A stretch of DNA of 64,000 nucleotides from Candidatus Nitrosocosmicus oleophilus (GCF_000802205.1 NZ_CP012850.1:682001-746000); one strand, 5' to 3'. Numbered from the stretch's first letter, positions 13,705 through 39,176 are shown. The notes: generated by a model from the sequence alone, not told the origin. Made by a program: numbers and translations.

Positions 13705-13939
13705 CATTTTTTCAATTATCTGTAGACTTGAGCAACATCATTATGTAAAAAAAATCACTGCAAGTATTTTCAAACCAAGTTGCCTATTTTTCTCTATTTT
13801 ATAACTATTGGGTTAACTTAGATTAATAACTAAAACCATTGTCATTTTGTGTCGTATAGTTTTTTGGTTTTGTTAATGTAACAAAGTCATTGTATCATTA
13901 ACGATACCTTTTTTATTAAATAATTGATATTTACTCTTG

Positions 13940-15982
13940 ATGAATATTGCACAGTCAATCCAAAATAACACTTTAATAAATAAAATGGTTCTAACTAAAA
14001 CTATGATTGCATGTCCATTAATGATGACTATGCATGTAAATTTATGGAATGTAAATGCAATAAAGTTAAAGAGCTTGGAAAATAAACATGATATTAGTCA
14101 AAGTGTAGAATGTATTATTGTGATGGTACAATGGATTACAATTTTCGTATATATCTCCTTATCTGCCTTGCTGCCATCTTTTTATATTGTTGTCAATATA
14201 AAACAATCTAAACCATTTAATACCATTTTATATAAAAAATTAATATGTCTGCATAACTTTTTAGATAAGATGGAGGAAATAGGTACTGCAGAAGGATTAG
14301 AAGAGTCCACAAAAACAATCCTCAATGTATTAAATAATTCAACAAACAGTCTTTTAATTTGTGCAGACCAGTACTGGCCTTCAGTCGCGATTGGCATAGA
14401 AGTATTTAATAAAGGGATGTTTGACTTAAAGAAAAGAAATGTAAAATGCAGGTTTATTACAGAAGTAACTAAAGAAAATATTGCTTTTTGTAAAGAATTA
14501 TTGAAGATAGCTGCAGTACATCATTTACCTGGATTAAAAGGAAATTTTGCAGTAAATGAAAATGAGTACATTGCATCGGCGACAATGAAAAATTTACAAT
14601 TATTGTCTCAAGTGGTATACAGCAATTCAAAGGCAGTTGTAGAACAACATAATTTCTTTTTTGAGAATCTGTGGGATAAATCAATTTCTGCAACAGAGAA
14701 AATTGATGAAATTGAAAAGGGTATTGTTCCTGAAATTGTAGCTGTCATTAAAAATCCCCTCGAAATAAAAAACATCTATTTTGATGTTCTAAAATCCAGT
14801 GTTACTGAAATAATGCTTATTCTTACAACATCCACTGTTTTTCTAAGTGAGGAAAACGATGGATTAATGCAATCTTTGATAGATGCTTCAAATAGAAATG
14901 TAAAAATAAGAATAATTACTCCGTCATTTAGTAACGCAAAAAATGAGATTGACAATCTAAGTCAAAAGAACAAAATTGAAGTTAGACGTATCGAATCGCC
15001 TTTTGATGCGCCGATAAATATACTAGTCGTAGATGAAAAGTATTCACTGATAGTTGAATTAAAGAATGACACAAAGCAGAAATTTACCGAAGCAGTTGGC
15101 TCGGCGATATATTCTACAAGTCAACCAAATGTTATATCATTTGTTACCATTTTTGATACATTATGGAAACAAACAGAGCTATATGAAAAACTAAAAGACG
15201 CAGATAATCTTAAAGAAGAATATATAAAAAAACTGCGGGTGGCCGACAAAGCAAAAGACGAGTTTGTTAATATAGCTGCCCATGAACTACGAACTCCAAC
15301 ACAAAGCATTTTGACATTTGCAAATTTATTAAAATATGATGTTAATAAAAATGAATCTATAGAAGCGATTTATAGGAACGCTAAAAGACTCAACGTTTTG
15401 ATAAAAAATATTTTAGATGTTACTAAAATCGAAAGTAACAAACTTGTATTACATCAAGAAAATTTTAACATAAACGATTTATTAACTACCGTCATAAAGG
15501 ATTACACAAGACAGTTAAAAAAACCTACTTATAAAAGGCGCATAAAAGTGTATTATACTCTACAGAGTGAAATCTTAGGACCGGATGCTCTTATTCATGC
15601 TGATAAGGAAAGAATTATTCAGGTTATTTCAAATTTGCTCGATAATGCAATAAAATTTATTGAAAAAGATGGATTGATTAGGATAACTCTTAAGATATCA
15701 AAAGGAGAGAGTCCACATGCGAATGGATACGCAGAAATAATAATTAAAGACAGTGGAAGTGGGATTTCAGAAGAAATCCTTCCTCATCTTTTTAGTAAAT
15801 TTTCTACTAGGTCGTTTCAAGGTACCGGATTGGGATTGTACATTTCAAAGAATATTATTGAGTCTCATAGTGGAAGTATGTGGGCTGAAAATAATAAAGA
15901 TGGAAAAGGTGCAACTTTCTCTTTTAGAATTCCATTAATTAAGACCGATCTGATTCAAAATAGTTCTGGGGTGAGTATATAA
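13940..15982 (+). CDS. Sensor histidine kinase with thaumarchaeal N-terminal sensor region
   Basis: HisKA has the phospho-His in NIAAHELRTPTQS, with the H-box around residue 450. HATPase follows, with the N-box (LLDNAIKFIE), the G1 box (DSGSGIS) and the G2 box (GTGLGLYISKNIIESH). Upstream are two alpha/beta sensor-like segments and a short coiled coil. The start is uncertain. From ATG 13940, 680 residues include one membrane-like helix around 55-75. ATG 14270, 12 nt after the spacing expected from a TTATATAA box at about 14228, would give 570 residues beginning right at the sensor region. The gene for a lone receiver starts 1 nt after the stop, so the two form an operon. Confidence 0.88.
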   Translation: MNIAQSIQNNTLINKMVLTKTMIACPLMMTMHVNLWNVNAIKLKSLENKHDISQSVECIIVMVQWITIFVYISLSALLPSFYIVVNIKQSKPFNTILYKKLICLHNFLDKMEEIGTAEGLEESTKTILNVLNNSTNSLLICADQYWPSVAIGIEVFNKGMFDLKKRNVKCRFITEVTKENIAFCKELLKIAAVHHLPGLKGNFAVNENEYIASATMKNLQLLSQVVYSNSKAVVEQHNFFFENLWDKSISATEKIDEIEKGIVPEIVAVIKNPLEIKNIYFDVLKSSVTEIMLILTTSTVFLSEENDGLMQSLIDASNRNVKIRIITPSFSNAKNEIDNLSQKNKIEVRRIESPFDAPINILVVDEKYSLIVELKNDTKQKFTEAVGSAIYSTSQPNVISFVTIFDTLWKQTELYEKLKDADNLKEEYIKKLRVADKAKDEFVNIAAHELRTPTQSILTFANLLKYDVNKNESIEAIYRNAKRLNVLIKNILDVTKIESNKLVLHQENFNINDLLTTVIKDYTRQLKKPTYKRRIKVYYTLQSEILGPDALIHADKERIIQVISNLLDNAIKFIEKDGLIRITLKISKGESPHANGYAEIIIKDSGSGISEEILPHLFSKFSTRSFQGTGLGLYISKNIIESHSGSMWAENNKDGKGATFSFRIPLIKTDLIQNSSGVSI

Positions 15983-16656: not shown

Positions 16657-17889
16657 ATGATCTGTATTATCCATATAAAGATGATAGATAGTCTAAATGA
16701 TCTATCTAATTACGATAAGGAGAATAACTCTGAGAGTACTTTCAATAGTTCCAGCGATGGTATTCCAAGATCAAATGCCGATCCGAATAGTTTAACTAAA
16801 GAAAGTAATCAAGAACAAATAAATTTTATTAATTTTACACAGCAATATTGTATCGGATTTATCGATATAATTAATTCCACTCAAGAAACTGCAAAAATAA
16901 AAGACCCTAAAAAGTTAAGAAAATATTATTCACTTTTTTTGAATTCGATGAGTACTATACTTAATCAATACCATGGAAAAATTATTAAAAATAGTGGAGA
17001 TAATTTGTTTTTTTACTTTCCAAAAACATCAAATCCTGGTGATCTACATGCATTGCAAAACGTTTTTGATTGCAGCAATTCAATGATTAAATCAAACAAA
17101 CCTTTGAATCAAGAACTGGCAGCAGAAAACTTACCTCCAGTCCATTATAGAATTAGTATGGATTATGGATTAGTAGAAGTTGCCTTGGGCTCTAATAACA
17201 AGGAAGTAGATTTATTTGGCTCGGTAGTAAATGAATGCGCTAAAATAAACAGCTTGTCTAAATCAAATGGATTGGTAATAGGAAAGAACTTGCATAGTTT
17301 ATTAATCAATTCAACATTTGGTAAAGAATTTGAAATATCTGAGATTGAACTATCATTGGATGGGAATAGCAAAAATATTAATTCCTGTTATACAATAATA
17401 GATAATAGAAATTTATTAATCGCAAACAAACGGGATGAAGCCCTCAAACACCAAGTCCCTTCTAATGAAATCAAACGAACTAGTCAAATAGAAAACAAAA
17501 AGTACAATATCTTACTAATAGATGACGAGGAGGATATTCTATACACATTTCATTCACTGTTAAAAAAGGAAGGATATCAAGTACATTCTTATTCAAATCC
17601 TATCGAAGCTCTAGAAAACTTGGCAAAAAAAAATTCTCATAATTATGATTTGGTAGTTATGGATATAAGAATGCGCGAGGTGAGCGGAATAAGGCTATTC
17701 TACAGATTTAAAGCGATAGATCCATATTTGAATATCATTTTTGTAACTGCTCTAGATCTGGTTGGCGAGTTCGTCGAAGCTTTACCTGAAATCAAAATGA
17801 CTGAAATTGTGAGAAAACCTTTAAACGGTCAACAGTTTTTATCGATCATAAAAAGGAAGTTAGCTGAAACTAAAACAGTTGGTAAATGA
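16657..17889 (+). CDS. Class III nucleotidyl cyclase-like domain fused to a C-terminal receiver
   Basis: 410 residues. Residues about 65-250 form a class III cyclase homology domain. The two metal Asp positions are seen in GFIDIINST and KNSGDNLF, with the Lys expected for adenine recognition before the second and an Asp in DLFGSVVN. The Asn of the transition-state pair is present (VVNECAKIN), but the Arg is replaced by Lys, so activity may be altered. Residues about 285-405 form a receiver (LLIDDEEDI, VVMDIRMREV, VRKPL). This inverted order (output first, receiver last) recurs in the paralogue at 29506-30678. No membrane helix is seen. The start is ATG 16657; ATG 16681 is possible. Confidence 0.85.
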   Translation: MICIIHIKMIDSLNDLSNYDKENNSESTFNSSSDGIPRSNADPNSLTKESNQEQINFINFTQQYCIGFIDIINSTQETAKIKDPKKLRKYYSLFLNSMSTILNQYHGKIIKNSGDNLFFYFPKTSNPGDLHALQNVFDCSNSMIKSNKPLNQELAAENLPPVHYRISMDYGLVEVALGSNNKEVDLFGSVVNECAKINSLSKSNGLVIGKNLHSLLINSTFGKEFEISEIELSLDGNSKNINSCYTIIDNRNLLIANKRDEALKHQVPSNEIKRTSQIENKKYNILLIDDEEDILYTFHSLLKKEGYQVHSYSNPIEALENLAKKNSHNYDLVVMDIRMREVSGIRLFYRFKAIDPYLNIIFVTALDLVGEFVEALPEIKMTEIVRKPLNGQQFLSIIKRKLAETKTVGK

Positions 17890-18025: not shown

Positions 18026-19756
18026 ATGATGCTATTGAAAAATCTCGATCATATTTTCTCCCAGGATTCACTTTTATCAAGTCTAATTAAATTAGTAGTT
18101 TTTCCATGTCTACTGCTGACGCTGTTCTTAGCAATCTCATTAGATCCTACTTTATGGGTTAGTTCAGAGATACATCATTTTTACATCGAATTGATTGCAG
18201 TAATATTAGGTTCGGCCCTATCCTTTTATTACATTTTGCGCTATAGAGTTCTACGAGATCGATTTAGTCTTTTTGTTGGTATAGGATTTTTCATTAGTGT
18301 TTCCATTGATTTGTTCCATGTTGTAGTGTCTTTCGCTTTAATAGAGAATATATCTTTCATAAAGTATTTTATTCCTCAAACTTGGTTTGCTGGACGTTTC
18401 TTCCTTGGTGCGATGCTCCTAATTGCAATTTTAAAATATTCATCGGTATCTCCAAGAGAAGAAATAGAACAACTGTCTGATGTCAGAGCACCATCATATA
18501 CACGAGAAGAAGAAAATGAACAAAAGGCCATTACTGAAAAAAAAGATGGTATGATTTTCTATATATCCATTTTAGGGATTATTGCAATAGTAACGGCTGT
18601 AAGCTCACTCTTTTTGGTTTATCCTTCATCAGTTTTAGATGATTATTCTGTTCATAGGCCGTACGAAATTCCACCTCTAATACTTTTTTGTTTGGTATTG
18701 TTCTTTTTTTACAAGAAAAAACTCTATCAAAAAAAAGATGTAGTGTATAAAGGACTTGCCTTGTATCTTGTAATTGATATATTTACACAGGTCGTCATGG
18801 CCTTTTCTGCTATGTCTTTTGATACTGCTCACAATATGGCACATGTTCTTAAAGACGTAGGATATTTTGTAAATATTATTGCACTTATTATGTCAAGCAT
18901 GCAATACAGTGCTTATCTGAAAAAGGCTAATTCATTAATCAAAGAAAATCTTAAAAAATTACAGGAAAACGAAAAACTCAAGGATGATTTTATTAACATA
19001 GCTGCCCATGAACTACGAACTCCAATTCAACCCATTCTAGGACTTTCTGATCTGATTAATCATAGTCTTCAGAATGACACTAGCGAGATCGATAAATCAG
19101 AATTGAAAAGTGATATGAAAGTGATATATAGAAACGCAAAGAAATTACAAAAGCTAACCAACGATATTTTGGACGTCTCCAGAATAGATAGTCATATTTT
19201 AAATCTGAATACCTCGAGATTTGATTTTGTGGAACTTATTAAAAATACCATTGAGGATTTTACCACAAATTCAGAAAAAAAAGAAGAAAATGTATACATT
19301 GATTTTGATCTCCGCGATGAAACTAAATCAAAAGAAGTTCTTGACCAATCAATATTGATAGAAGGAGATAAGACTAGAATATCGCAGGTTTTGTTAAATT
19401 TGTTAAATAATGCAAGAAAGTTTACCGAAGAAGGAAAAATAACTGTAACGGTATTGATAAAAAAGGACGCCAAAGAAGTAATAGTAAGTATCAGTGACAG
19501 TGGAAAAGGAATTAATTCTGAAGTAATGAATCATCTATTTGAAAAGTTTATTTCAAGGTCAGATAGTGGGACTGGTTTAGGACTATACATTTCAAAAAAC
19601 ATAATAGAAGCACATAGAGGTAAAATTTGGGCATCAAACAACCAGAACGGAATTGGAAGTACCTTTAGCTTTAGTATCCCTGTTGAAACAAGATCTATGA
19701 CAGAATCCGAACCCAAACCTGAACCCAAACCAAACGCAGGAATAAATCGCGCCTGA
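18026..19756 (+). CDS. Membrane sensor histidine kinase with MASE-like multi-helix domain
   Basis: 576 residues. The first 310 residues hold about seven to eight hydrophobic helices resembling MASE-type sensor domains, with a charged insert around 150-175. HisKA follows (FINIAAHELRTPIQP), then HATPase with LLNNARKFTEEG, DSGKGIN and GTGLGLYISKN. The C-terminus is a short PKPEPKPN tail. The signal is unknown but is sensed in or near the membrane. Its HisKA core is nearly word-for-word like the kinase at 13940, so the two are related. It lies 136 bp after the cyclase-receiver gene on the same strand. The next gene downstream is the first of the exported-protein island. Confidence 0.9.
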   Translation: MMLLKNLDHIFSQDSLLSSLIKLVVFPCLLLTLFLAISLDPTLWVSSEIHHFYIELIAVILGSALSFYYILRYRVLRDRFSLFVGIGFFISVSIDLFHVVVSFALIENISFIKYFIPQTWFAGRFFLGAMLLIAILKYSSVSPREEIEQLSDVRAPSYTREEENEQKAITEKKDGMIFYISILGIIAIVTAVSSLFLVYPSSVLDDYSVHRPYEIPPLILFCLVLFFFYKKKLYQKKDVVYKGLALYLVIDIFTQVVMAFSAMSFDTAHNMAHVLKDVGYFVNIIALIMSSMQYSAYLKKANSLIKENLKKLQENEKLKDDFINIAAHELRTPIQPILGLSDLINHSLQNDTSEIDKSELKSDMKVIYRNAKKLQKLTNDILDVSRIDSHILNLNTSRFDFVELIKNTIEDFTTNSEKKEENVYIDFDLRDETKSKEVLDQSILIEGDKTRISQVLLNLLNNARKFTEEGKITVTVLIKKDAKEVIVSISDSGKGINSEVMNHLFEKFISRSDSGTGLGLYISKNIIEAHRGKIWASNNQNGIGSTFSFSIPVETRSMTESEPKPEPKPNAGINRA

Positions 19757-20423
19757 ACTAAACCCTATCAAATCAAATTTTATTTATTGAAAATTATTGT
19801 AAACAAAAGAAGGATAATATCCTTATAAGGTATATCTTGGTATCCGCATTGGCCTAACAATCATAGTCCTATTCTCAATTTCTCATAAAAACCTAATCTC
19901 AATTGAGCTACCAGCACGTGTAACTTTTTTCATTATTGATAGTTTTTAGATCTTAAATTATTTTCTATGTTACCATTATGGTTACAATATCATTAATTCC
20001 AATTTCATAATTTGCATCCAGATTCTTGCTTAACTGAATATTATAGGTCTTCATCACAGTAATCAAGAATCTTGATCATTTTTCCAGAAAACCTGAAGGT
20101 CGTTTATACCAAAAATAATAATATATAGATCGAGCAATAATAAAATAAAAAGATCAACTCATCAAATTCTGATTTAATTAATCAACTTAATTTCGAAATA
20201 AAGTACAATTTTTTTCCATTCTACTTAATTTACATGAAATCAAATTGCAATTGTGATTTTGGCAAAATATTATCTACTCGTATTTTTTTACTTAATATCC
20301 TTACAGTAATACAGTATCGGATTTGATCTATTACTTTTGTATATCTTGTTAATATATGTTAGAGTTACAGGTTTTTAAGAAGAATTCTAAATATGCACAA
20401 TATTAATTTAAATAGTGAATAAG
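19757..20423. other. Long AT-rich intergenic region
   Basis: 667 bp between the membrane kinase and the first exported protein. No RNA gene or open frame was recognised. TTTTTAAG-like and ATATGC-like boxes near 20370-20395 could promote the downstream gene. Confidence 0.5.
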
Positions 20424-21140
20424 ATGAAATCAAATTCAAAGCTCTTCATAATGACAATAGTTTTAGGCAGTCTATTTATTGGATTGTTATCTTACGTACA
20501 AGTTCAATCCTCAAGCGCACAATCTACAGGGTTGTCAGCCTTAAAAAATATTCCTGGATATAGCATGTTTGAAGAAACCCTTAACGATAAAGCTGGAGCT
20601 TCTACTGCTGCAATAGGTACTCCGGATTATAGAATAATTGATAAAGCTGTAATCGCAAAATCTGCAAATAATGTACAGGCTGTTTTGCAAGCTCATGGAC
20701 ATATTCCAACTAATGGAGATGGTGGTGCTTTCGGGTATGGTATTTTGACTACTCAAGGTTTAAACGCTGTAATGGTAAGCACTACTCATAAAGGTGTATA
20801 CGATAGTGAAGATCAAAAAGGTACTAATGACCCAAGGTGGCACAACCATTATGTATCGTTGGCAGATGTTCCAGGTGATCCCTGTGGTTCCAATCCAGCA
20901 GTCACATCAATAACATTCCAATCTCCAGGTGAAGTGGTAGTTAACAAGAATAAAGCAGTAATGTCAAATCTTCCAGCTAAATTTACAGGTACTTCACCAC
21001 CATCCGATGTACACCGAGTTACATTAAATCCTGGAACTAATGTGCAAGATGTAGTGTCATTTACCCTTGAACCTACAGGCAATTCGGTATGTGTGACTAA
21101 TATCAAGCATATAGATAAAGACGATATAATAAAGAACTAG
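20424..21140 (+). CDS. Exported protein of unknown function
   Basis: 238 residues from ATG 20424; an in-frame GTG at 20415 is an alternative. A clear signal peptide is visible: KLFIMTIVLGSLFIGLL followed by VQSSSAQS. The mature part is beta-rich with Gly and Asn turns. It has a WHNHYVSLADVP segment, whose two His could bind metal, and two cysteines (GDPCGSN and VCVTN) that could form a disulfide. I do not recognise a family. It is the first of seven consecutive exported-protein genes and is not low-complexity, unlike several of its neighbours. Confidence 0.75.
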   Translation: MKSNSKLFIMTIVLGSLFIGLLSYVQVQSSSAQSTGLSALKNIPGYSMFEETLNDKAGASTAAIGTPDYRIIDKAVIAKSANNVQAVLQAHGHIPTNGDGGAFGYGILTTQGLNAVMVSTTHKGVYDSEDQKGTNDPRWHNHYVSLADVPGDPCGSNPAVTSITFQSPGEVVVNKNKAVMSNLPAKFTGTSPPSDVHRVTLNPGTNVQDVVSFTLEPTGNSVCVTNIKHIDKDDIIKN

Positions 21141-21739
21141 AATCCTTATTATCAATTTTTTTGATTGAGTTATAGAAATTTTCTTGATTCTGTGTATTTC
21201 TATCATACCCTTCATCTCATAATGAACTGAGTGATTAAGATGGAGATCTAATGATATATTTTCAAAAAAATCTGAATTATTACATTTAGCGCTTTTGCGT
21301 AGATTATTGAATTGTCTGACGACTAGAATAAGTTGTCATGTTAGATCCTGTTGTTCTTTTTCTTTAAATCAAAAAAATTTATTCTAATTACTACCCTAAA
21401 TTATCATTCTTGTTGTGATCATCAATATGATATGAACGTCATATTTTTCCTTATTAGAAAGAGATAATATAACCATAACAATAGATGTCATATGGTAGTT
21501 GATTCAAGCATAATCTACGGATCAATAGATTTAAAATTTGTCGGTACGCCTGCTAATTTTTCCTATTTGCAAATGAATATTAAAATAAGGATGTAATTGG
21601 TATCGAATAAGAATCTCTTAACAAATGATCCAACACGAGTATCTGGGATTAATGCTCACTTGTTCTTGTTCTATATGGACTTTTAATAAGCAAAATTGCT
21701 TTTACAAATTATATTTTATTATCATAAGGCCTTTTTTGG
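21141..21739. other. Intergenic region with one small palindrome
   Basis: 599 bp. At 21430-21444 lies an inverted repeat, ATATGA-ACG-TCATAT, which could be an operator. A box around 21706-21719 (AATTATATTTTATT) sits about 26 bp before the TTG of the next gene. Nothing else was recognised. Confidence 0.45.
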
Positions 21740-22330
21740 TTGAGCTTGAAAGCTAAGATATGTTTTTATGTATTGTGTCTTATCTACTTTCTAATGAAAA
21801 AAGCAAATAACCTATATGTTTTATTGTTTTTTGCATTTATGATATTGTTGCCCACTGGCATACAATTCTCATATTCTCAAGGTCAGGAATTGTCAACTGG
21901 GCAAGTACAATCCAATAGCACGAATGCAACAAATACTCCATTAATAAGTAATTCTCAAACTTTGTTATTAGAGGATACAACCTTACCTCAAGCAAGTTAT
22001 CTTCATCTTTATGACTCTTCCCCATATAAAATTATGAATAGTCATATTGCTGCAAAAATTCCATGTAACGATGACTACACCACGCCAATAATCTTCCTTT
22101 TTGGGCCAGACATTCAGGTGCCTCTTGATGGATTAGCATTGTCACCTTTACTTTCACAAGCCGGTGGACTATGTATGTATAAGGGCGATATTATAGGAAA
22201 TGGAACCACAAACTTTACGGATATTGCAATATACAATAACTCCACTGATGATATTGTCTTTCCGCCAACATCAACCATAAATATAAGAGTCAATGAGGTT
22301 TCTCCACAACTAAACAACACCATCCAGTAA
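21740..22330 (+). CDS. Exported protein of unknown function
   Basis: 196 residues from TTG 21740, which lies about 26 bp after a TATA-like box. From ATG 21794 it would have 178 residues with a more typical signal peptide (KKANNLYVLLFFAFMILLP). A Ser/Thr/Asn/Gln-rich stretch follows, then a globular part with two cysteines (AAKIPCNDDYTTP and GGLCMYKGD) and Asn-rich ends with several Asn-X-Ser/Thr sites. No family is recognised. It is a single gene with long spacers on both sides, in the exported-protein island. Confidence 0.7.
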   Translation: MSLKAKICFYVLCLIYFLMKKANNLYVLLFFAFMILLPTGIQFSYSQGQELSTGQVQSNSTNATNTPLISNSQTLLLEDTTLPQASYLHLYDSSPYKIMNSHIAAKIPCNDDYTTPIIFLFGPDIQVPLDGLALSPLLSQAGGLCMYKGDIIGNGTTNFTDIAIYNNSTDDIVFPPTSTINIRVNEVSPQLNNTIQ

Positions 22331-22773
22331 CACTTTCTTTTTTCTTTTCTCAGAAAATCAACTAATCGATTATTTGGACAAGAGGCATCTTTTTCATACA
22401 TTATGACTAAAATGAAATAATGATACTGTAAACAAATTACCCGTTATTTAGAAATGATGGTCTATAATAATCCGATACTGTCACGCTTACTTTTCTATCA
22501 TCAATAAGTGATAGTGACATGTCCATATGTAAACAGGAGTGATTATTTTTATGCTATGAATTTATTACTCTAATTTTTCTACCTAACCAAATTATTTACG
22601 TTTCCAAAACAACCAATTATCTATCTATTCATGTCTTATTTTTGATTAACTTGATAAGAAACGTTGATAATTAGATGGTCAAATATTTTCGAATACTTTT
22701 ATTACTATTTATTAATATACACAAATAAAGTTGTAGTACTGGGAGACTGGACTAAAAATTGTTTAAAAAAGGA
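22331..22773. other. Intergenic region with a nested hairpin
   Basis: 443 bp between convergent genes. CTATCA (22495-22500) pairs with TGATAG (22509-22514), and TGTCAC (22479-22484) with GTGACA (22514-22519). The two stems share a base, so they are alternatives or an imperfect longer stem. This could be a transcript-end structure; function is unknown. Confidence 0.4.
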
Positions 22774-23037
22774 TTATTGTTGACCTAGAGCATTGTTACC
22801 GAAGTTAAGGTTCAATGATGCATCTACATTATTACACGATGCTAATGATGTTCCATTTTCAGAAAAACATGAGGAGCTCTGTAATGTTTCAGATTGCTGT
22901 CCAATTCCTTCTTCTGCTACATTTTTTTTGTTTTTTGATGCAAAAACTGTGTTATGGTCTATAGTTATTACTGAACCAATAAGTGCTGTTGCAACAAATA
23001 TTGTCATAAATGCCAATCTGGTTTGATTTTTATTCAT
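22774..23037 (-). CDS. Small exported protein ending in a GNNALGQQ motif
   Basis: 87 residues. The N-terminal signal peptide (RLAFMTIFVATALIGSVITI) is followed by about 55 mature residues with two cysteines (SSSCFSENGTSLASC). The Asn-rich tail is SLNLNFGNNALGQQ. The ATG at 23037 is preceded by a GTATATTTAAC box. I know no family function. The size, Cys pair and patterned Asn/Gly tail suggest a small extracellular structural or assembly protein, but this is inference. It is transcribed opposite to its exported neighbour at 21740. Confidence 0.65.
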   Translation of the reverse strand: MNKNQTRLAFMTIFVATALIGSVITIDHNTVFASKNKKNVAEEGIGQQSETLQSSSCFSENGTSLASCNNVDASLNLNFGNNALGQQ

Positions 23038-23448
23038 AATTAAAAATGTTAAATATACTACATTAAACTTGCCAATACTAATTCTGCTTGCTTTTCTCTA
23101 TAGATTTTTCTAAAAGAATATTTTGTAAAAGTTTAATGCATGTTTTATGGTCAATTCTAAACAATAATAAATCTCCTATTAAAGATGTGTCAAAAAAAGA
23201 TTACTTATTTTTGAAAAGAACTTGTGTCAGCTAACCAGTGATATACTTTAATATATTTTTAAGAGTTTATGTGAAAAAAGACTCTTACTCCTTATGATCA
23301 TCATACGTAGGAATTTAGATATCTGCTGACGGTAACAAAGAAATTCCTATATTTACTAACGCTATCCATTGAAAGATATCAAATTCATTGCAAACAGACT
23401 CATATATTGTATTTAGATTCCTGCGATGCGATTGTAATCAATCTGAGA
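23038..23448. other. Intergenic region, nothing recognised
   Basis: 411 bp of AT-rich DNA upstream of the 87-residue gene and downstream of the Gly-Gly-Asn gene. No gene or strong structure was seen. Confidence 0.45.
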
Positions 23449-24042
23449 TTAGCTATTGCCACCATTGCCACCATTGCCACCTATACTGTTTCCACCATTG
23501 CCACCATTGCCACCTATACTGTTTCCACCATTGCCACCATTGCCACCATTGCCACCATTGCCACCATTGCCACCATTGCCACCATTGCCACCATTGCCAC
23601 CATTGCCACCATTGCCACCATTGCCACCATTGCCCCCTATACTGTTTCCACCATTGCTACCTATACTATCGACAGCATTGTTCTTTCCTGTTCTATCGTC
23701 CGATTTACTTGAACATGTGTCATCTCTATCATTGCCACCATTGCCACCATTGCCACCATTGCCACCATTGCCACCATTGCCACCATTGCCACCATTAATT
23801 CCAGTGCCATTACTACCATCTAGACCATTGCTACCATCTAGACCGTTGCTACCATCTAGACCGTTGCCACCATCTTTACCCTTTACATTACATGAGGAAA
23901 AAAGCGTATCTTTGGTCATAGTATTCGAAGAATTAGACAAAGTTTCGTTGTCTACATTACCAGTGCCAGAATAAGCGCTTTGGTTGCCAATTAAACATAA
24001 AAATAAAGTACTAAAAATTCCCCAAATTAGTAATTGATTCAA
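23449..24042 (-). CDS. Exported Gly-Gly-Asn repeat protein
   Basis: 197 residues. The start is TTG 24042, about 28 bp after an ACTTTATATC box, so probably leaderless. A short signal peptide (LLIWGIFSTLFLCLIG) is followed by a Ser/Thr/Asn segment. Next come GLDGSN repeats, a GGN run of about seven triplets, a 24-residue Asp/Ser/Cys spacer, and a second GGN run of more than fifteen triplets broken by NSI inserts. Glycine falls at two of three positions, as in proteins expected to form polyglycine II helices. An extracellular structural role is inferred. The spacer has one Cys and the N-terminal part another. Confidence 0.75.
   Translation of the reverse strand: MNQLLIWGIFSTLFLCLIGNQSAYSGTGNVDNETLSNSSNTMTKDTLFSSCNVKGKDGGNGLDGSNGLDGSNGLDGSNGTGINGGNGGNGGNGGNGGNGGNGGNDRDDTCSSKSDDRTGKNNAVDSIGSNGGNSIGGNGGNGGNGGNGGNGGNGGNGGNGGNGGNGGNGGNGGNSIGGNGGNGGNSIGGNGGNGGNS
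23455..23796. repeat. 9-bp tandem repeat tracts encoding Gly-Gly-Asn
   Basis: On the plus strand ATTGCCACC is repeated head to tail. The main tract is 23455-23639, interrupted by TATACTGTTTCC inserts. A second tract is at about 23729-23796. Copies are nearly perfect, so copy number may change by slippage while staying in frame. Confidence 0.9.
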
Positions 24043-24444
24043 TAGTGATTAATAACAGGTCAAAGATATAAAGTATTTTGCCTAATTCTTATTACGTAAA
24101 ATCAATGGGTTATATTTTAAGGTTTAATGGATCTTTTCTAAAATGGGTTAAATTATTCTGTATTAAATTAAATGAAAATCTACAAAATACTACCTTCTTC
24201 CTTTCTATTAATAAATAATTTGCAAAAAATTCTAATAATAGGCAACTGCAGTGGTATTCATTTTTAGTATACCAAGCTAAAAATTTTTTAAAAGCTGAAA
24301 CATTTCATAATTGGGACATTAAGATAACTAGGATTCATATCTTAAATCTTGGTAAAAATGTAGATTTAAATTATCATGAACAATTTAAAGGTCATTTTAT
24401 ATTTACTGCAAATATACTATGCACGTTTAGATATGTGCTAATAC
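24043..24444. other. Divergent intergenic region between two repeat-protein genes
   Basis: 402 bp holding both promoters: an ACTTTATATC-type box for the minus-strand gene at about 24066-24076, and a TTTTATATTTAC box near 24396-24407 for the plus-strand gene. No RNA gene was seen. Confidence 0.5.
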
Positions 24445-24828
24445 ATGAATATCAAAAAGAAATCAATAATACTCACATTTTTGGGCATTCAATTACTATC
24501 AGGAATTCTATTGTTTACAAATCCATTAAGTGCGAACGCTCAATTGGACTTTTTGAATTTAGGCGAGCAAGTATCACCTAATGATAATCAAACCAGCTTT
24601 AGTTCTCTATTTTCAACACCCGAAAATACAGGATCTCAAAATACAAGCAGTAATCAAGATGATATTTTAATTCCTAGTATGTCGTTCCATGATGGTCAAG
24701 ATGGTCAAGACGGCTTATCAGGTCAAGATGGTCAAGACGGCTTATCAGGTCAAGATGGTCAAGACGGCTTATCAGGTCAAGATGGTCAAGACGGCTTATC
24801 AGGTCCGGAAAGGACAGTTATACCATAA
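24445..24828 (+). CDS. Exported protein with collagen-like Gly-X-Y repeats
   Basis: 127 residues. The signal peptide (SIILTFLGIQLLSGILLF, then LSANAQ) is followed by a 55-residue Asn/Ser/Gln-rich segment. Four perfect nine-residue repeats GQDGQDGLS follow, then GPERTVIP. Every third residue in the repeat block is Gly, so the block is a short collagen-like stretch of about 12-13 triplets. There is no Pro in the triplets except at the end, and no assembly domain, so triple-helix stability is uncertain. It may be a natural short form or a contracted allele. It is divergent from the Gly-Gly-Asn gene. Confidence 0.78.
   Translation: MNIKKKSIILTFLGIQLLSGILLFTNPLSANAQLDFLNLGEQVSPNDNQTSFSSLFSTPENTGSQNTSSNQDDILIPSMSFHDGQDGQDGLSGQDGQDGLSGQDGQDGLSGQDGQDGLSGPERTVIP
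24694..24801. repeat. Four perfect 27-bp tandem repeats
   Basis: The 27-bp unit begins GGTCAAGATGG and ends GGCTTATCA. It occurs four times with no mismatch and codes for GQDGQDGLS each time. The lack of drift, even at third positions, points to recent expansion. Confidence 0.95.
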
Positions 24829-25456
24829 TCTTTTGTAAATCTCTTTTTTTGCTTAAATACCATCACTCATTATTTCCTTTATACCTGATTCGCTACTTCA
24901 TTTGGAATAGCATAACATAGCATCAAGAAAAGTAAACTGATCAGGTCCGTCTGCTGAATATTATTATGGTATATCCAAATATGTCCCTCAAGGGTTCAGA
25001 CAAGATTATTTATTAATCAAGATGGATAATGAATGTTTTGATAGGTGTTCATTTGCCTAATCTATATCCAAAATAGCATTGTATGAACCGAGAATTTGGC
25101 GAGTGAGACGTATTTCCGAATTGAATTACCTATTTATTGTTATTGTAGCTTTGTTCTCTTTCTACGAACGTTCCTTAAATGTTTTATATATCACCGTGAT
25201 CTGTCATTTCAAAATATCGGAGTTATAATCCATTTTCAAAAAGAGAATGATACCTGAATATTCAATTTTTGTTCGTATTATTAACTTAAATTTGAATATC
25301 TCTAATAAGGTTCAAATGAAAAAATTGGAATCTATCTAATATTGTTCAACTGAAAAATTGGAACTAATTTCTACTATACTATTACTATAGATTATATCCA
25401 ATTATTTTTCCATAATAAAAAACCTTATATAGCTACTTTGTGAAAGGTACACAACT
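24829..25456. other. Upstream region of the 809-residue repeat gene, with a direct repeat
   Basis: 628 bp. GTTCAAATGAAAAAATTGG (from 25310) and GTTCAACTGAAAAATTGG (from 25344) form an imperfect direct repeat 34 bp apart, about 60-110 bp before the promoter box CCTTATATAGC at 25423-25433. Two turns of spacing would be 21 bp and three 31.5 bp, so protein binding on one face is possible but not shown. Confidence 0.5.
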
Positions 25457-27886
25457 TTGATCAATAACAAGTATATGCTATTTAGCATGGTATTTTTCTT
25501 AGCCATGACTTTATTAGGTCCAATTTATACAAATCCTGCTCTTGCAGCTAATAACGGCGGCTCAGGCGGTGACGGCGGCTCAGGCGGTAGCGGCGGTAGC
25601 TCAGGTGGCGCCATATCAGTTGGCGGCTCCGGCGGGTCTGGCGGCAATAGTGGCTCTGGCGGTAACGGTGGTAACAGCGGCGACGGCGGCTCTGGTGGCG
25701 ACGGCGGCGGCAGTGGCGGTGGAGGAGACAATGAAGCCAATGGTGGCGACGGCGGTGACTCTGAAGGCGGCGACGGAGGAGACTCTGAAGCTGGTGACGG
25801 TGGCAACGGCGGCGACAGCGGCGATGCAACAAGCGGTGACTCCGACGGCGGCTCAGGCGGCGACGGCGGCTCTGGCGGCGACGCTGGTTCCGGCTCACTC
25901 TTCTCAGTAGGAGACGATGATGATGAAGATAATACAGGCGGCGACGGCGGTGCAGGCGGCGACGGAGGCGAAGGCGGCGATAGCGGTGACGCTGTTTCCA
26001 TAGGCGGCTTTGGCGGCGACGGCGGCGACAGTGACACTGGTGGCGACGGCGGTACAGCTGGTAACGGCGGTAACGGCGGTGAAGGCGGTATTGCTGTGGG
26101 CATTGGTGACGACGGAGAAAACGAAGCCAATGGTGGCGACGGCGGTGACTCTGAAGGCGGCAACGGAGGAGACTCTGAAGCTGGTGACGGTGGCAACGGC
26201 GGCGACAGCGGCGATGCAACAAGCGGTAGCGCTAACGGTGGCTCAGGCGGCGACGGCGGCTCTGGCGGCGACGCTGGTTCCGGCTCACTCTTCTCAGTAT
26301 TGAGTAGCAATGAAGGAACTAACACTGGCGGTACAGGCGGCGACGGCGGTACAGGCGGCGACGGCGGTGAAACCGGTCTAGCATTTACACTAGGCGGCTT
26401 TGGCGGTAACGGCGGCGACAGTGCTGCAGGCGGCGCAGGTGGCAATAGTGCTACAGGCGGCGACGGAGGCGAAGGCGGTTTCATCTTAGGCTTTGGCGAT
26501 GATCAACAAAACGAAGCCAATGGTGGCGACGGCGGTGACTCTGAAGGCGGCAACGGAGGAGACTCTGAAGCTGGTGACGGTGGCAACGGCGGCGACAGCG
26601 GCGATGCAACAAGCGGTAGCGCTAACGGTGGCTCTGGCGGCGACGGCGGCTCTGGCGGCGACGCTGGTTCCGGCTCACTCTTCTCAGTATTGAGTAGCAA
26701 TGATGAGGATAATACAGGAGGTTCTGGCGGCTCTGGCGGCTCTGGCGGTGCAGGCGGTGAAACCGGTCTAGCAGCAGCTGTAGGCGGCTTTGGTGGCGAC
26801 GGCGGCGACAGTGACACTGGCGGCGACGGAGGTACAGCTGGTAACGGCGGTGCAGGTGCTGCAGGTGGTATTATTATAGGCGTAGGTGACGGACAAGAAA
26901 ACGAAGCCAATGGTGGCGACGGCGGTGACTCTGAAGGCGGCAACGGAGGAGACTCTGAAGCTGGTGACGGTGGCAACGGCGGCGACAGCGGCGATGCAAC
27001 AAGCGGTAGCGCTAACGGTGGCTCTGGCGGCGACGGCGGCTCTGGCGGCGACGCTGGTTCCGGCTCACTCTTCTCAGTATTGAGTAGCAATGAAGGAACT
27101 AACACTGGCGGTACAGGCGGCGACGGCGGTACAGGCGGCGACGGCGGTGAAACCGGTCTAGCATTTACACTAGGCGGCTTTGGCGGTAACGGCGGCGACA
27201 GTGCTGCAGGCGGCGCAGGTGGCAATAGTGCTACAGGCGGCGACGGAGGCGAAGGCGGTTTCATCTTAGGCTTTGGCGATGATCAACAAAACGAAGCCAA
27301 TGGTGGCGACGGCGGTGACTCTGAAGGCGGCAACGGAGGAGACTCTGAAGCTGGTGACGGTGGCAACGGCGGCGACAGCGGCGATGCAACAAGCGGTAGC
27401 GCTAACGGTGGCTCTGGCGGCGACGGCGGCTCTGGCGGCGACGCTGGTTCCGGCTCACTCTTCTCAGTATTGAGTAGCAATGATGAGGATAATACAGGAG
27501 GTTCTGGCGGCTCTGGCGGCTCTGGCGGTGCAGGCGGCTTTAGTAACTTTGCAGCTTCTATAGGCGGCTTTGGTGCTGATGGCGGTAACAGCGAAAACGG
27601 CGGTAACGGCGGTACAGCTGGTAACGGCGGTGCAGGCGAAGACGCTGGTATTGCTATAGGTATTGGTGACGATGCAGAAAGCGAAGCCAATGGTGGCGAC
27701 GGCGGTGACTCTGAAGGCGGCAACGGAGGAGACTCTGAAGCTGGTGACGGTGGCAACGGCGGCGACAGCGGCGATGCAACAAGCGGTAGCGCTAACGGCG
27801 GTGCAGGCGGTGCAGGCGGTGCAGGCGGCAACGCAGGTTTATTTTCATACTTCAAAGTCTTTGACTTTGATAACCTATTCACTTAA
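25457..27886 (+). CDS. Large exported acidic Gly-rich repeat protein (130-residue units)
   Basis: 809 residues. The start is TTG 25457, 29 bp after the box at 25423-25433; ATG 25475 is an alternative. A signal peptide (MLFSMVFFLAMTLLGPIY, then PALAA) is followed by almost pure GGx sequence rich in Asp, Glu, Ser, Asn and Ala. The 130-residue unit begins NEANGGDGGDSEGG at residues 92, 222, 352, 482, 612 and 742 and carries one hydrophobic SGSLFSV motif and one GGFGG motif. Between the signal peptide and the aromatic tail (LFSYFKVFDFDNLFT) I find no Arg and only one Lys, in that tail. A secreted, negatively charged structural or matrix protein is inferred. It is GC-rich, unlike all its neighbours. 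Confidence 0.85.
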   Translation: MINNKYMLFSMVFFLAMTLLGPIYTNPALAANNGGSGGDGGSGGSGGSSGGAISVGGSGGSGGNSGSGGNGGNSGDGGSGGDGGGSGGGGDNEANGGDGGDSEGGDGGDSEAGDGGNGGDSGDATSGDSDGGSGGDGGSGGDAGSGSLFSVGDDDDEDNTGGDGGAGGDGGEGGDSGDAVSIGGFGGDGGDSDTGGDGGTAGNGGNGGEGGIAVGIGDDGENEANGGDGGDSEGGNGGDSEAGDGGNGGDSGDATSGSANGGSGGDGGSGGDAGSGSLFSVLSSNEGTNTGGTGGDGGTGGDGGETGLAFTLGGFGGNGGDSAAGGAGGNSATGGDGGEGGFILGFGDDQQNEANGGDGGDSEGGNGGDSEAGDGGNGGDSGDATSGSANGGSGGDGGSGGDAGSGSLFSVLSSNDEDNTGGSGGSGGSGGAGGETGLAAAVGGFGGDGGDSDTGGDGGTAGNGGAGAAGGIIIGVGDGQENEANGGDGGDSEGGNGGDSEAGDGGNGGDSGDATSGSANGGSGGDGGSGGDAGSGSLFSVLSSNEGTNTGGTGGDGGTGGDGGETGLAFTLGGFGGNGGDSAAGGAGGNSATGGDGGEGGFILGFGDDQQNEANGGDGGDSEGGNGGDSEAGDGGNGGDSGDATSGSANGGSGGDGGSGGDAGSGSLFSVLSSNDEDNTGGSGGSGGSGGAGGFSNFAASIGGFGADGGNSENGGNGGTAGNGGAGEDAGIAIGIGDDAESEANGGDGGDSEGGNGGDSEAGDGGNGGDSGDATSGSANGGAGGAGGAGGNAGLFSYFKVFDFDNLFT
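25730..27800. repeat. 390-bp tandem repeat array with 780-bp higher-order unit
   Basis: The word ACGAAGCCAA or its variant recurs at exactly 390-bp steps, with unit starts at 25730, 26120, 26510, 26900, 27290 and 27680 (the last unit partial). Segments 26116-26757 and 26896-27537 differ at one base in 642 (26245 A versus T). Pairs of units have therefore been copied as 780-bp blocks recently. Confidence 0.95.
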
Positions 27887-28572
27887 ACCTGAACTAACTA
27901 CTACATACTAGCCTAACAGAACAGAATATGATGAAAAGGTAACTTTTCATCTTTATTTTATTATATTATTAAAAGAAATTGAAACTTTATTAATCCCATA
28001 TAAGTGTACGTTAGAAAAAAAGAATAGCATCTAAAACAATTCATTAGATCGATAATTTTTATAAATTTGTGTTCTATTGATAATTTATTTCGACGACTAA
28101 TGGTAGTGTTATTAAGATATCACTTGAAGGAATCATAAAATATATAAAGTACGCATGTCAATCTACTTTGTTTAAAATACTTTTATGTTCTCCGTAAAAG
28201 GAGTATTTATACTTATCCACAAATTACAACAATTTGAATTAAGTTACAATGCATCTTGATCCACTTTTATCAATCATCTGTTGTATAGTTACTAAACATA
28301 AGAAAACAAAGACGATTGACTATATCCAGACCAGGTCCCATAATATGAATGCTGTCTTCTTTATTTTTCCTTATTTTAAATAATATACTTGCGCTAACAG
28401 GCAAATAATATTCTCATGTTTATTTTACATGTGTTATTATATATCTAAATAAGTAATTTAGTCTATTATTATGATCATATTCATAGGATCTTCGAATAGC
28501 GTAATAAGTAACTAAATAATGGATAAAAATGATTAATCCCTTAAAAGAGATTAAGGGATTAATTAACCTAGT
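27887..28572. other. Intergenic region between convergent repeat-protein genes
   Basis: 686 bp of AT-rich DNA. Apart from the hairpin at 28532-28563 nothing was recognised. The composition drops sharply to AT-rich right after the 809-residue gene ends. Confidence 0.5.
28532..28563. terminator. 13-bp perfect inverted repeat, candidate transcript-end hairpin
   Basis: ATTAATCCCTTAA (28532-28544) pairs fully with TTAAGGGATTAAT (28551-28563) across a 6-nt loop. It starts 9 bp beyond the stop of the minus-strand Gly-rich gene (28573), so it lies in its 3' UTR. It is not followed by a long T-run on that strand, so it may be an RNA-stability element and not a true terminator. Confidence 0.6.
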
Positions 28573-29169
28573 TTAAATTGTTTCTGTTCCTGGGACTTTA
28601 GGTATTAATGAGTCTTCTCCTTCTTCATTGCATGCAAATGCATTGCAAATAGCTATTGCATCTCCACCTTTTCCACCGTTACCGCCTGCGCCACCGTCAG
28701 CATTTCCACCGTTTGTCTCACTAGTACTACCGCCGTCACCACCAGCACCTGCAGTAGAGTCACCACCAGCACCACCAGTAGTGCTACCACCGTTGCCACC
28801 GTTAGCAGAGTTCTCTCCTACATACTCATCTGCACCGACTAATTCTAATGCTGCATCAAGTAATTCTTCGCCTATATTGCCTCCAGCACCGCCTTCTCCG
28901 CCGTTACCGCTATTACCACCAGCGCCACCAGCTTCGCTAGCACCACCTTCACCACCGTCTCCAGCAGTTGCGTCTGCTCCGCCTCCTTCACCACCATCAC
29001 CACCATTGCCAGCGTCTCCACCGTTTCCAGCAGTTTGCGTTAATGCATTTGCAAGTGAGGTTGATGGAACCATTGTTGTCAAAAGAGCTAGTGCAACTGC
29101 ACCAAGCACTGCCATATACAATAATGAGCTTTTTTTCTCATTCTTGGATTTTTCATTACGTTGAGTCAT
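28573..29169 (-). CDS. Exported Gly-rich (GGx) protein
   Basis: 198 residues. A charged N-terminus of 16 residues is followed by one hydrophobic export segment (LLYMAVLGAVALALLTTMV, then STSLANA). Two GGx blocks rich in Asp, Glu and Ala (about residues 47-100 and 117-170) are split by a non-repetitive helix-like segment (EELLDAALELVGADEYVG). The C-terminal 25 residues have a Cys pair (ICNAFACNEE) and no Gly repeat. The DNA repeats are less exact than in the other Gly-rich genes, so this copy looks older. An exported structural role is inferred. The ATG at 29169 is clear. Confidence 0.78.
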   Translation of the reverse strand: MTQRNEKSKNEKKSSLLYMAVLGAVALALLTTMVPSTSLANALTQTAGNGGDAGNGGDGGEGGGADATAGDGGEGGASEAGGAGGNSGNGGEGGAGGNIGEELLDAALELVGADEYVGENSANGGNGGSTTGGAGGDSTAGAGGDGGSTSETNGGNADGGAGGNGGKGGDAIAICNAFACNEEGEDSLIPKVPGTETI

Positions 29170-29505
29170 ATTAAAAATTATTGTAGATCATAATTATATT
29201 ATAATTTGGAGTGATAATTTCATTATAATTTTCTAGTATTATATTTGGTAGAATTATTAACATTAGAATTTTGAATGTATGGGCGTAAATGGGGGATATC
29301 TTGAATATTTTGAATATAAAGGAGAAATTTGTCATTTATTTACTTTTAAATTGTATTGTAGTATTCTGGTCGCCACTAATCCATCAGTAATTGATTCTAG
29401 ATGTACTGCTTAGAACTGTTAATTGTCAAATAAGTTATCTTGCTGTTGTCTTAATTATTGACTTTTCTGCAAGTCAATTCCATGCCATGTCTTCTAACTA
29501 ATTTC
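29170..29505. other. Intergenic region, promoter side of the Gly-rich gene
   Basis: 336 bp. AT-rich boxes (ATTATATTATAATTT near 29190-29205) lie upstream of the minus-strand Gly-rich gene. The rest lies downstream of the cyclase-receiver gene and shows nothing recognisable. Confidence 0.45.
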
Positions 29506-30678
29506 TTATTTTCTTAATGCTATATTTATTTTGTCTAATAGTTGTTGGGATTCTACAGGTTTTCTCAAGATATCTGAATCATTAATTTCAGGAAATAAGC
29601 TTAACAATTCCCAAACAGCGTCTAAGGCCGATATAAAAAGTATCTTTACGTTGGGATTCATTATTCTAAATTTGGAGTATAATTTAATACCATTTATTCC
29701 CGGCATCCGTATATCCATTATAACTAAATCGTACAAATATGGATTCGTTGTTGAAAAGTCATTGAGGGCTTTGTATGGATTTGAAAAAGAGGTTATTTTA
29801 AAGCCTTGACTTTTAATTATCGCTGAATATGTAAAAAGAATGTCTTTGTCATCATCTATCAACAAAATGTTAAAAGACGAGTTATTTCTATTTTGATTAA
29901 TACGCTTACGTTCAGCATGTAATTCTAGTATTTTACTTTCTATTTCTTTTTGTTTATTAATATCTTCAAATCGACGTACAGAATAAGTTGTATATACATT
30001 TCTATTATTCTCTGAATGATGGTCGTTACCATGGTTTTTACGTTCTATTTCCTCAAATACATAGTCATCGAAATATGGCATTTCTTTAATGACTTGATAA
30101 AGATCTCTATGAATAATCATTTGATTTGATGAAGCTAAATGATTTATTTTAGAACATATATTTACAGGTGTTCCAAAAATATCACCGCTATGAGAATTTG
30201 CTACGATAGCTAATTCTACTTTACCATAACTTGCACTAATCCTATAATTTATAGGAGGTAAACCATTTAAATCCAACAACAGATCCATTTGATCCTTTGC
30301 ATCAATCATCGATAATCCACATTCAATTACATTTTGAAAATCTAAATGGTTACTCTCATTCATTGTACTTGGAAAATAGTACAACAAGTTATCGCCAGCG
30401 TTTTTAACTACTTTGCCCCCATGACGACTTATAATTGAGGTCATGGTATTGAGGAATACAGAGTAGTATTGCTTGATCTTTTTAGATTCTAATATGTCAT
30501 ATGTATTGTTTGTAGAATCAATTATATCAATTATGCATACACAATAATTATTGGAAAAATCAACAAAGGTTATTTGATTATCCTGTGGACTATCTTCTTT
30601 TAGGGAAAGATGTATTTTGCTTTCATCTTTTGTTGTACTATTTTTATTTTCCAAATAATCCGCCAACTTCTTATTCAT
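29506..30678 (-). CDS. Class III nucleotidyl cyclase-like domain fused to a receiver (paralogue)
   Basis: 390 residues with the same order as the gene at 16657. The cyclase-like domain spans about residues 35-225, with metal Asp positions in CVCIIDIIDST and KNAGDNLLYYF, and Asp in GDIFGTPVN. The Asn of the catalytic pair is present, with Lys in place of Arg (VNICSKIN). A coiled linker follows, then a receiver (LLIDDDKDI, VIMDIRMPG, LRKPVE). It should be soluble. Phosphorylation of the receiver probably controls the cyclase part, or the part acts as a nucleotide sensor if inactive. The partner kinase is unknown; the histidine kinases at 13.9-19.8 kb are candidates. Confidence 0.85.
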   Translation of the reverse strand: MNKKLADYLENKNSTTKDESKIHLSLKEDSPQDNQITFVDFSNNYCVCIIDIIDSTNNTYDILESKKIKQYYSVFLNTMTSIISRHGGKVVKNAGDNLLYYFPSTMNESNHLDFQNVIECGLSMIDAKDQMDLLLDLNGLPPINYRISASYGKVELAIVANSHSGDIFGTPVNICSKINHLASSNQMIIHRDLYQVIKEMPYFDDYVFEEIERKNHGNDHHSENNRNVYTTYSVRRFEDINKQKEIESKILELHAERKRINQNRNNSSFNILLIDDDKDILFTYSAIIKSQGFKITSFSNPYKALNDFSTTNPYLYDLVIMDIRMPGINGIKLYSKFRIMNPNVKILFISALDAVWELLSLFPEINDSDILRKPVESQQLLDKINIALRK

Positions 30679-36980: not shown

Positions 36981-37001
36981 GAGTTGTGTAGTTATATAAT
37001 T

Positions 37002-39176
37002 ATGAGCCAAAACACCATATCACTAAAGGTGCTTGAAGCTTATACCCGAGATGTAGGCCGTGGTGTTGCTAGAATTGATTATGAATCTATGGATGCTTTG
37101 AGCGCATCTACAGGTGATGTCGTGGAAATTAAAGGTAAACGTAGAACAGTTGCAAAATGTTTGCCTCTTTATCCGTCGGACGAAGGTAAGGGTATACTCC
37201 GAGTTGATGGTCTGGTTAGAAATAATGCGGGTGTAGCTATAGGAGACACTATAATTGTTAGAAAGATTAAAGCTGTTCCTGCAGAAAAAGTCATAGTTGC
37301 ACCATTAGAAGCTATTCCTCCAATTGATGAACGATATTTAGCTGATGCTCTTGAAAGTGTACCATTAATCAAAGGCGACAATGTGATGGTGCCATATTTT
37401 GGTGGTAGACTTACATTTCAAGTCATAGGTGTCACTCCAGGTCCTGGTGTTGATGCCGTTTTAGTTACTCAAAAAACTGTATTTCATATTGCTGAAAGGG
37501 GAGAAACTCTTCGTGGAGTACCCCAAGTAACATACGAAGATATCGGTGGCTTAAAAGAGGAAGCCCAAAAAGTTCGTGAAATGATAGAACTGCCATTACG
37601 ACATCCAGAAATATTTGAAAAACTGGGTATCGAGGCACCAAAGGGAGTGTTGTTGTATGGACCTCCAGGTACCGGTAAAACCTTGTTGGCAAAAGCAGTG
37701 GCCAATGAAAGTAATGCACACTTCGTGAGTATTTCTGGTCCAGAAATAATGAGCAAATTCTACGGTGAATCTGAAGCAAGACTGCGTGAAATATTTAAAG
37801 AAACCAAAGAAAAGGCTCCTTCTATAATGTTTATCGATGAAATAGACTCTATAACTCCAAAGCGAGAAGAGGTAACAGGAGAAGTTGAAAGAAGAGTTGT
37901 ATCTCAGTTATTATCTTTGATGGATGGATTAGAAGCAAGAGGTAAAGTTATAGTTATCGCTGCCACAAATAGGCCAAATGCTATAGATCCAGCTCTAAGA
38001 AGACCTGGTCGATTTGACCGAGAAATTGAAATCAAAGTTCCTGATAAACGTGGTAGATTAGAAATCCTACAAATTCACACAAGAAACATGCCTTTAGAAT
38101 CAGATGTAAATCAAGAAAAAATAGCATCTGTAAGTCATGGTTTTGTTGGTGCAGATTTGGAATACCTCTGTAAGGAAGCTGCGATGAAATGTCTTAGACG
38201 ATTGTTACCTGAACTTAACTTGGAAGATGAGAAAATAAATCCTGAAGTATTGAATAAGTTAATTGTTACCATGTCTGACTTTGAAAATGCTCTTAAAGAA
38301 GTGATGCCATCTGCCATGAGGGAAGTTTATCTGGAATCTCCCGATGTTGAATGGAATGATATAGGTGGATTAGATGATGTTAAACGAGAGTTACAGGAAG
38401 CAGTGGAATGGCCGTTAAGGTACCCAGATCTTTATACAAAACTTGGCCACTCTAATCCCAAAGGAATTCTGATGCATGGTCCCTCTGGTACCGGAAAAAC
38501 TATGCTTGCCAAGGCAGTCGCAACAGAATCTGAATCTAATTTCATTAGCGTAAAAGGACCAGAATTATTGTCAAAATGGGTTGGCGAATCTGAAAGAGGG
38601 ATCAGAGAAATTTTCCGACGAGCAAGACAAGCTGCACCATGTGTTGTTTTCTTTGATGAAATAGATTCGATCGCACCAGTAAGAGGACTGGGAGGTGACA
38701 GCATGGTGACTGAAAGAGTCGTTTCCCAACTATTAACCGAATTGGATGGAATTCAACAATTAACCAGTGTGGTTATTATTGCCGCAACTAACCGATCGGA
38801 CATGATAGATCCTGCATTGTTAAGACCAGGTAGGTTTGACAAGATAGTATATGTGCCTTTACCTGACAAGGCTACAAGAAAGAAAATATTGGAGATTCAT
38901 TCATTAGAAAAACCTATTTCTGACATCGTTGATTTCGATAGAATCGCTGAAATTACAGATGGATTTAGCGGAGCTGATGTATCTGCTGTTTCAAATACGG
39001 CGGTTTCACTCGTGTTGCATGAGTATCTTCAAAAATATAGTAATCCTGAAGACGCTGCAAAACACGCAACAGAGGCACATGTTACAATGAAACATTTCGA
39101 AGATGCTGTAAAGAAGATAAAAACTCAAAGAGATAGTAAGTCGGGTGAGAAAGTTACAGTACCTTATTACAGGTAA
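37002..39176 (+). CDS. CDC48/VCP-type AAA ATPase
   Basis: 724 residues. An N-terminal double-psi barrel/CDC48 domain covers about residues 1-185. AAA D1 has Walker [11 protein letters not shown], Walker B FIDEID and an arginine finger region. AAA D2 has Walker [11 protein letters not shown] (Ser for the usual second Pro) and Walker B FFDEID. It acts as a hexameric unfoldase feeding the proteasome and remodelling complexes. The start is taken as ATG 37002 because of the promoter spacing, not TTG 36984. The C-terminus (VTVPYYR) has no clear HbYX motif. It is a single gene. Confidence 0.95.

Follow-up and report, generated by a model that had tools for sequence, protein, structure and literature searches.

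A co-inherited four-gene cassette of predicted secreted glycine-repeat proteins in Nitrosocosmicus

A block of seven consecutive genes for exported-looking proteins, four of them glycine-repeat proteins, lies among signalling genes in the single-contig, 3.43-Mb genome (G000) of Candidatus Nitrosocosmicus oleophilus. Does such a block encode one surface system and, if not, which of its genes belong together and what could their products build? The stretch analysed here, called the window, covers 64,000 nucleotides, and all seven open reading frames, termed A to G, were confirmed at positions 20424–29169. Each of them begins with a strongly hydrophobic segment (best 12-residue Kyte–Doolittle mean of 2.2–2.9), which resembles a signal peptide according to this hydropathy heuristic, and no further transmembrane segment is seen by hydropathy. 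Genes A (20424–21140, plus strand), B (21794–22330, plus strand, with its start at 21794) and C (22774–23037, minus strand) encode predicted exported proteins of 238, 178 and 87 residues. The glycine-repeat proteins are encoded by D (23449–24042, minus strand, 197 residues), E (24445–24828, plus strand, 127 residues), F (25457–27886, plus strand, 809 residues) and G (28573–29169, minus strand, 198 residues), the start codon of D and F being TTG. The strands are thus mixed, and the gaps inside the block (336–686 bp) are three to seven times longer than the median of 101 bp in the rest of the window. The original prediction had described these long spacers, as well as the flanking histidine kinase genes (13937–15982 and 18026–19756) and the two cyclase-receiver genes (16657–17889, plus strand, and 29506–30678, minus strand, with Pfam matches PF00211 and PF00072), and all of these were recovered.

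A few other features of the region can be recorded. The first histidine kinase shows a weak match to a PLD-like domain ahead of its kinase core, and the counterpart of the kinase gene at 18026 in genome G012 (L126 4330-6044) is apparently split into two overlapping frames. No RNA was found with Rfam between 15 and 34 kb of the window. The G000 genome encodes a pair of CDC48-type AAA ATPases that are about 92% alike, one at 36984–39176 of the window and the other at G000:C1:3238073-3240253; two copies are also present in G003, G005, G007 and G010.

Whether the seven genes form a single island was addressed by comparing, across the genus, the slot bounded by the pentapeptide-repeat gene 13219 on one side and by gene 31005, CysH and Sat on the other. 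The block is absent from most genus members. The slot is empty in G005, where D–G lie 1.4 Mb away, and in G008, with no pentapeptide gene seen there. It holds only a relative of B in G003, C plus other genes in G007, and the cyclase-RR1 and kinase genes with none of A–G in G010. The G012 slot contains cyclase-RR1, the kinase, C and cyclase-RR2, followed by a collagen-like gene and a relative of A. In G036, the kinase, A and cyclase-RR2 are retained with 356 bp replacing 8.2 kb, and B–G are absent. At the base level, G000 and G012 differ by three separate breaks, which correspond to A (19797–21231), B (21592–22717) and D–G (23173–29471). Of note, G036 is placed in another genus (g11), and its contig C68 (L030) matches the DNA of this locus with up to 92% identity, which may reflect a binning error or a recent transfer.

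The distribution of the first three genes completes this picture. Relatives of A, which has no Pfam or NCBIfam match, occur in 16 of 61 genomes, with three copies in its own genome; A is missing between the kinase and C in G012. Gene B is found throughout the Nitrososphaeraceae (53 of 70 genomes, 11 of 12 genera) and, in the comparison with G012, it is a separate indel of 1.1 kb. For gene C, about 50 paralogues make up a family, with 51 matches in its own genome (among them L193, L195, L200 and L202-L210), 43 in G003 and 5–37 in other genus members. This family has no Pfam or NCBIfam entry and is confined to the genus apart from three matches in G036; its relatives in GTDB contigs almost all carry the label Candidatus Nitrosocosmicus. 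Orthologues of C occupy the corresponding position in G012 (90% identity) and G007 (64%). Some copies comprise two or more units ending in GNNA..Q, and a curlin-repeat origin, considered because of the GNNALGQQ motif, was dropped since no Pfam hit was obtained. Several Nitrosocosmicus collagen-like proteins (L211:901-1638, L029:5111-5842 and L029:6285-6935) start with a C-type cap (C..SGEST...CNN), followed by a proline-rich collagen run and a C-terminal Cys domain, which links the C and collagen-like families. Given the three separate indels, the empty slots, the family-wide presence of B and the many copies of C, the block is best described as a lineage-special assembly at a variable site. 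The genes A, B and C, which encode unrelated secreted proteins, merely occupy this variable slot together with D–G, and the seven genes do not stay together in relatives.

The four glycine-repeat genes behave differently. Full-length relatives of D and E occur in exactly four of the 15 genus genomes (G000, G005, G006 and G012), and the distribution of D was unchanged when the search was extended to 300 genomes of the order. F and G occur only in these four genomes: F was found in all of them but G012, and G in all but G006. The contig carrying the genes of G012 (C67) stops 171 bp past E, and the G006 contigs C713 and C12 stop beside E and D, so that F in G012 and G in G006 would lie beyond the contig ends. 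The gene order is D, alcohol dehydrogenase (ADH), TatD, G, E and F in G005, where the four cassette genes lie at 140,046–149,296, and E, G, D, ADH and TatD in G012; in G006, F and E lie on one contig and D, ADH and TatD on another. D, E, F and G thus occur in the same four genomes and near each other, so the set of four, as originally singled out, is inherited together in several species: it is a real co-inherited cassette.

In G005, G006 and G012, the cassette adjoins the ADH/TatD pair, and epimerase and glycosyltransferase genes follow it in G005, the only one of these with a long contig. The ADH–TatD pair of G000 is found at 2.349 Mb, near a glycosyltransferase gene and without the cassette. 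The pair without the cassette also occurs in G003, G007, G008, G009 and G010, and in G014 within the limits of its short contig. Since the cassette occupies different sites in G000 and in the three other genomes, it has changed place. The cassette proteins encoded by G000 are 44–51% identical to the versions of the relatives, with 49–51% for the G orthologues of G005 and G012. The identities around the G012 cassette are far from uniform. Between G012 and G000, CysH and gene 31005 are 96 and 92% identical; between G012 and G006, the values are 95% for TatD, 88% for ADH, 86% for D and 94% for E. Judging from these identities, the cassette may have moved between species near G012, and a chimeric G012 bin would give the same picture.

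Purifying selection acts on each of the four genes. The dN/dS ratios reach 0.15–0.16 for D and 0.10–0.17 for E in comparisons among G005, G006 and G012, 0.23 for F (G005–G006) and 0.18 for G (G005–G012), with 0.04–0.10 for the neighbouring TatD gene in the same three genomes. A stretch of 64 bp directly upstream of G (29190–29253, minus strand) is strongly conserved in G000, G005 and G012, more so than the G protein itself (about 50% identical). The local alignments comprise 77 of 93 positions identical to G005 and 82 of 104 to G012, with scores of 55–58 against shuffle maxima of 30–33. This conservation above all shuffles marks 29190–29253 as a candidate promoter or 5′ leader element. The element was not seen elsewhere in the window. 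The G000 upstream regions of D, E and F show no comparable conservation, their best scores reaching or barely exceeding the shuffle maximum, and no motif common to the upstream regions of the four genes was found.

Glycine accounts for 36% of D, 41% of F, 28% of G and 13% of E, and its lag-3 values in the four proteins (0.76, 0.71, 0.63 and 0.57) exceed the maxima of 500 shuffles (0.35–0.48). GGx runs extend over 2–13 triplets. D has the organization Cys-(Gly-X-Y)-GGN-Cys-GGN, with a tandem array of 9-bp (GGN) repeats detected by TRF at 23455–23634 (18.7 copies) and a second 9-bp array at 23730–23796 (7.4 perfect copies). F is a strongly acidic GGx protein (130 Asp and Glu versus 2 Lys and Arg). 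G is a GGx protein ending in AIAICN..C, with a module in common with F. D, F and G are variants of one GGx pattern and do not represent the different repeat chemistries that had been proposed for the four proteins; only E stands apart, as a proline-free Gly-X-Y protein. Its 27-bp repeat (24694–24805; 4.1 copies, 100% identical) gives four perfect repeats of Gly-Gln-Asp/Gly-Leu-Ser triplets, and E passes the Pfam collagen model PF01391 (30.1 bits for a cut-off of 27.2). No Pfam family, even at E 1, and no NCBIfam match was obtained for D, F and G, nor any Pfam hit at E 10 for their relatives. No relatives of G were found in a scan of the GTDB contigs, a collection that may omit very close genomes.

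The number of repeats changes between species, as originally suggested. In G000, F is made of 5.4 units of 130 residues (TRF period 390), with five complete units at 25733–27682 (starts at 25733, 26123, 26513, 26903 and 27293) and a partial sixth one from 27683; only about two units are present in G005 (308 residues) and G006 (290 residues). Units 2 and 4 share 389 of 390 bases, and units 2–3 and 4–5 differ once in the first 635 of their 780 bases, which is the pattern that a recent in-frame duplication of two units would leave. The repeat periods of D, E and F (9, 27 and 390 bp) are all multiples of three, and the Cys and Gly register is conserved among the relatives of the repeat proteins.

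The same association of repeat types is observed outside the genus. In G035, a Cys-GGx-Cys protein, a GAD collagen-like protein and a GGx protein, corresponding to the D, E and F/G types, are the products of three adjacent genes. In G079, genes for a Gly-X-Asp protein and for a GGx protein are neighbours, and single proteins of G064, G079 and G025 combine GGx and Gly-X-Asp runs. The pairing of GGx with proline-poor Gly-X-Asp repeats thus recurs in two other genera of the family. These loci were inspected because weak profile matches brought them in, so that the pairing is treated as an association and not as a proof of common descent. The proteins of G035, G064, G079 and G025 resemble the cassette in this pairing, as neighbours or fusions, but they differ in their repeat sequences, carry extra Cys-containing domains and align only weakly to D–G.

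Several known systems offer partial comparisons. Like the bacterial collagen-like proteins (PF01391; Scl, Lcl), E has an uninterrupted Gly-X-Y run after the signal peptide that scores over the Pfam cut-off, but it differs by its length of about 13 triplets, its lack of proline, the absence of a C-terminal globular or anchor domain and its inheritance with GGx proteins. The cassette proteins share with the mycobacterial PE_PGRS proteins a predicted export, GGx triplet runs and copy-number changes by whole triplets. They are archaeal and strongly acidic, with a Sec-type signal peptide instead of a PE domain, which was not detected in D, F or G by Pfam even at E 1. The GGx repeats of PE_PGRS proteins are predicted to form polyglycine II sandwiches (PMC10216338). 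AlphaFold2 gave very low confidence for G (198 residues, 3 sequences; pLDDT 37.5) and for residues 1–352 of F (5 sequences; pLDDT 40.3), so that a polyglycine II fold stays an analogy with PE_PGRS, and no credible match was obtained when solved structures were searched with F and G profiles. RTX repeat proteins are likewise rich in Gly and Asp, and F contains 44 GGxGxD matches; but the GGxGxDx[hydrophobic] pattern occurs in neither D nor F, which do not conform to the calcium-binding beta-roll consensus, and once in G. The thaumarchaeal S-layer protein and its anchor (slp, slaB) would occupy the same cell compartment as D–G, which are mostly small low-complexity proteins.

What could such a cassette be for? 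The reading that we favour, with moderate confidence, is that D–G form an accessory cassette of secreted structural proteins for the coat or matrix of the S-layer-less Nitrosocosmicus. Members of this genus have no S-layer, slp and slaB being absent, and imaging by cryo-tomography has revealed, in N. oleophilus MY3 and N. franklandus, a wall of 18 nm and 30-nm hair-like structures whose make-up is unknown (PMC11559005). These published data are compatible with a role of D–G in such a coat or in a matrix. This role also fits exported-looking acidic Gly-repeat proteins encoded near polysaccharide genes in a relative. Biofilms of the Nitrosocosmicus clade arise from suspended aggregates (PMC12448741). 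We infer export, fold, partner binding and location of the D–G proteins as follows. The Sec pathway would export them; D, F and G, with their GGx repeats, would give stiff rods or sheets, possibly of polyglycine II type, or acidic gels, and E a short proline-free collagen-like segment; together with surface polysaccharide, they would contribute to an outer coat or an intercellular matrix. No anchor domain was found in the D–G proteins. Since the cassette is absent from 11 of the 15 genus genomes, it is not the universal Nitrosocosmicus coat, and would be an accessory component at most. The matrix role first proposed for the whole block remains plausible for D–G, and its extension to seven genes is contradicted by the separate indels. 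A more specific proposal, which we consider quite improbable, is that polyglycine II-type GGx proteins and proline-free Gly-X-Asp triple-helix proteins co-assemble as a hair-like coat replacing the S-layer in some Nitrosocosmicus, its thickness being tuned by in-frame repeat duplication.

Two other roles appear unlikely to about the same extent. The D–G proteins could bind water, ice or ions outside the cell during drought, freezing or salt stress, as do hydrophilins or the Gly-rich snow flea antifreeze protein; the very acidic, Gly-rich composition of F would suit this role, and the snow flea protein folds as a small polyglycine II bundle, as cited in PMC10216338. Against this, the profile searches with F and G provided no relative of solved structure. 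E is moreover collagen-like, and we know of no precedent for a collagen-like partner in ice-, water- or ion-binding stress-protein systems.

Alternatively, D–G could be variable surface molecules used for adhesion or for evasion of phages or grazers, with repeat changes as a source of diversity. Changes in the repeats of mycobacterial PE_PGRS proteins have been proposed to create surface diversity in this way. The varying number of repeats, perfect enough for slippage, the patchy distribution, the movement between sites and the seemingly exchanged cassette region of G012 all agree with this idea; the dN/dS values of 0.10–0.23 indicate constraint and not diversifying selection, and no binding domain was detected in D, F and G with Pfam and NCBIfam.

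That D–G are only low-complexity reading frames with signal peptides, spread by repeat slippage and lacking a fixed role, is very unlikely: the lack of known families for D, F and G and the very patchy presence would be explained, but not the purifying selection on all four genes, the conserved Cys and Gly register, the conserved element upstream of G or the pairing that recurs in other genera. Least probable of all is a single matrix or surface-layer system comprising all seven genes under the control of the flanking kinases and cyclase-receiver proteins. The contiguity of the genes between signalling genes in G000 speaks for it; the separate indels of A, B and D–G relative to G012, the slots of G036, G010 and G005, the mixed strands and the long gaps speak against it. 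The regulators do not travel with D–G: they occur without D–G at this place in G010, G012 and G036, and the D–G site of G005, G006 and G012 is devoid of them. The proposed control thus lacks comparative support, and the cyclase-receiver gene next to G is present in the slots of G012 and G036 without D–G.

The favoured reading of D–G as an accessory coat or matrix cassette can also be set against published work. In full-text searches of the literature, neither Gly-rich nor relevant collagen-like proteins were found to be described for Nitrosocosmicus, and a search by terms of the main text of the N. franklandianus biofilm transcriptome paper (PMC12448741) showed no mention of such proteins. Within the literature searched, D–G is thus a previously undescribed accessory cassette, made of building blocks of known types.

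The ammonia oxidisers of the genus Nitrosocosmicus are common in soil; they lack the S-layer of other ammonia-oxidising archaea, and the composition of their thick coat is open (PMC11559005). The cassette gives four candidates, mostly small, for coat components. Both imaged strains, MY3 and N. franklandus, presumably carry it and close relatives do not, which allows a direct comparison. At the level of the family, the cassette would join the GGx and proline-free Gly-X-Asp repeats as a recurring pair, which is found within single proteins in three genomes.
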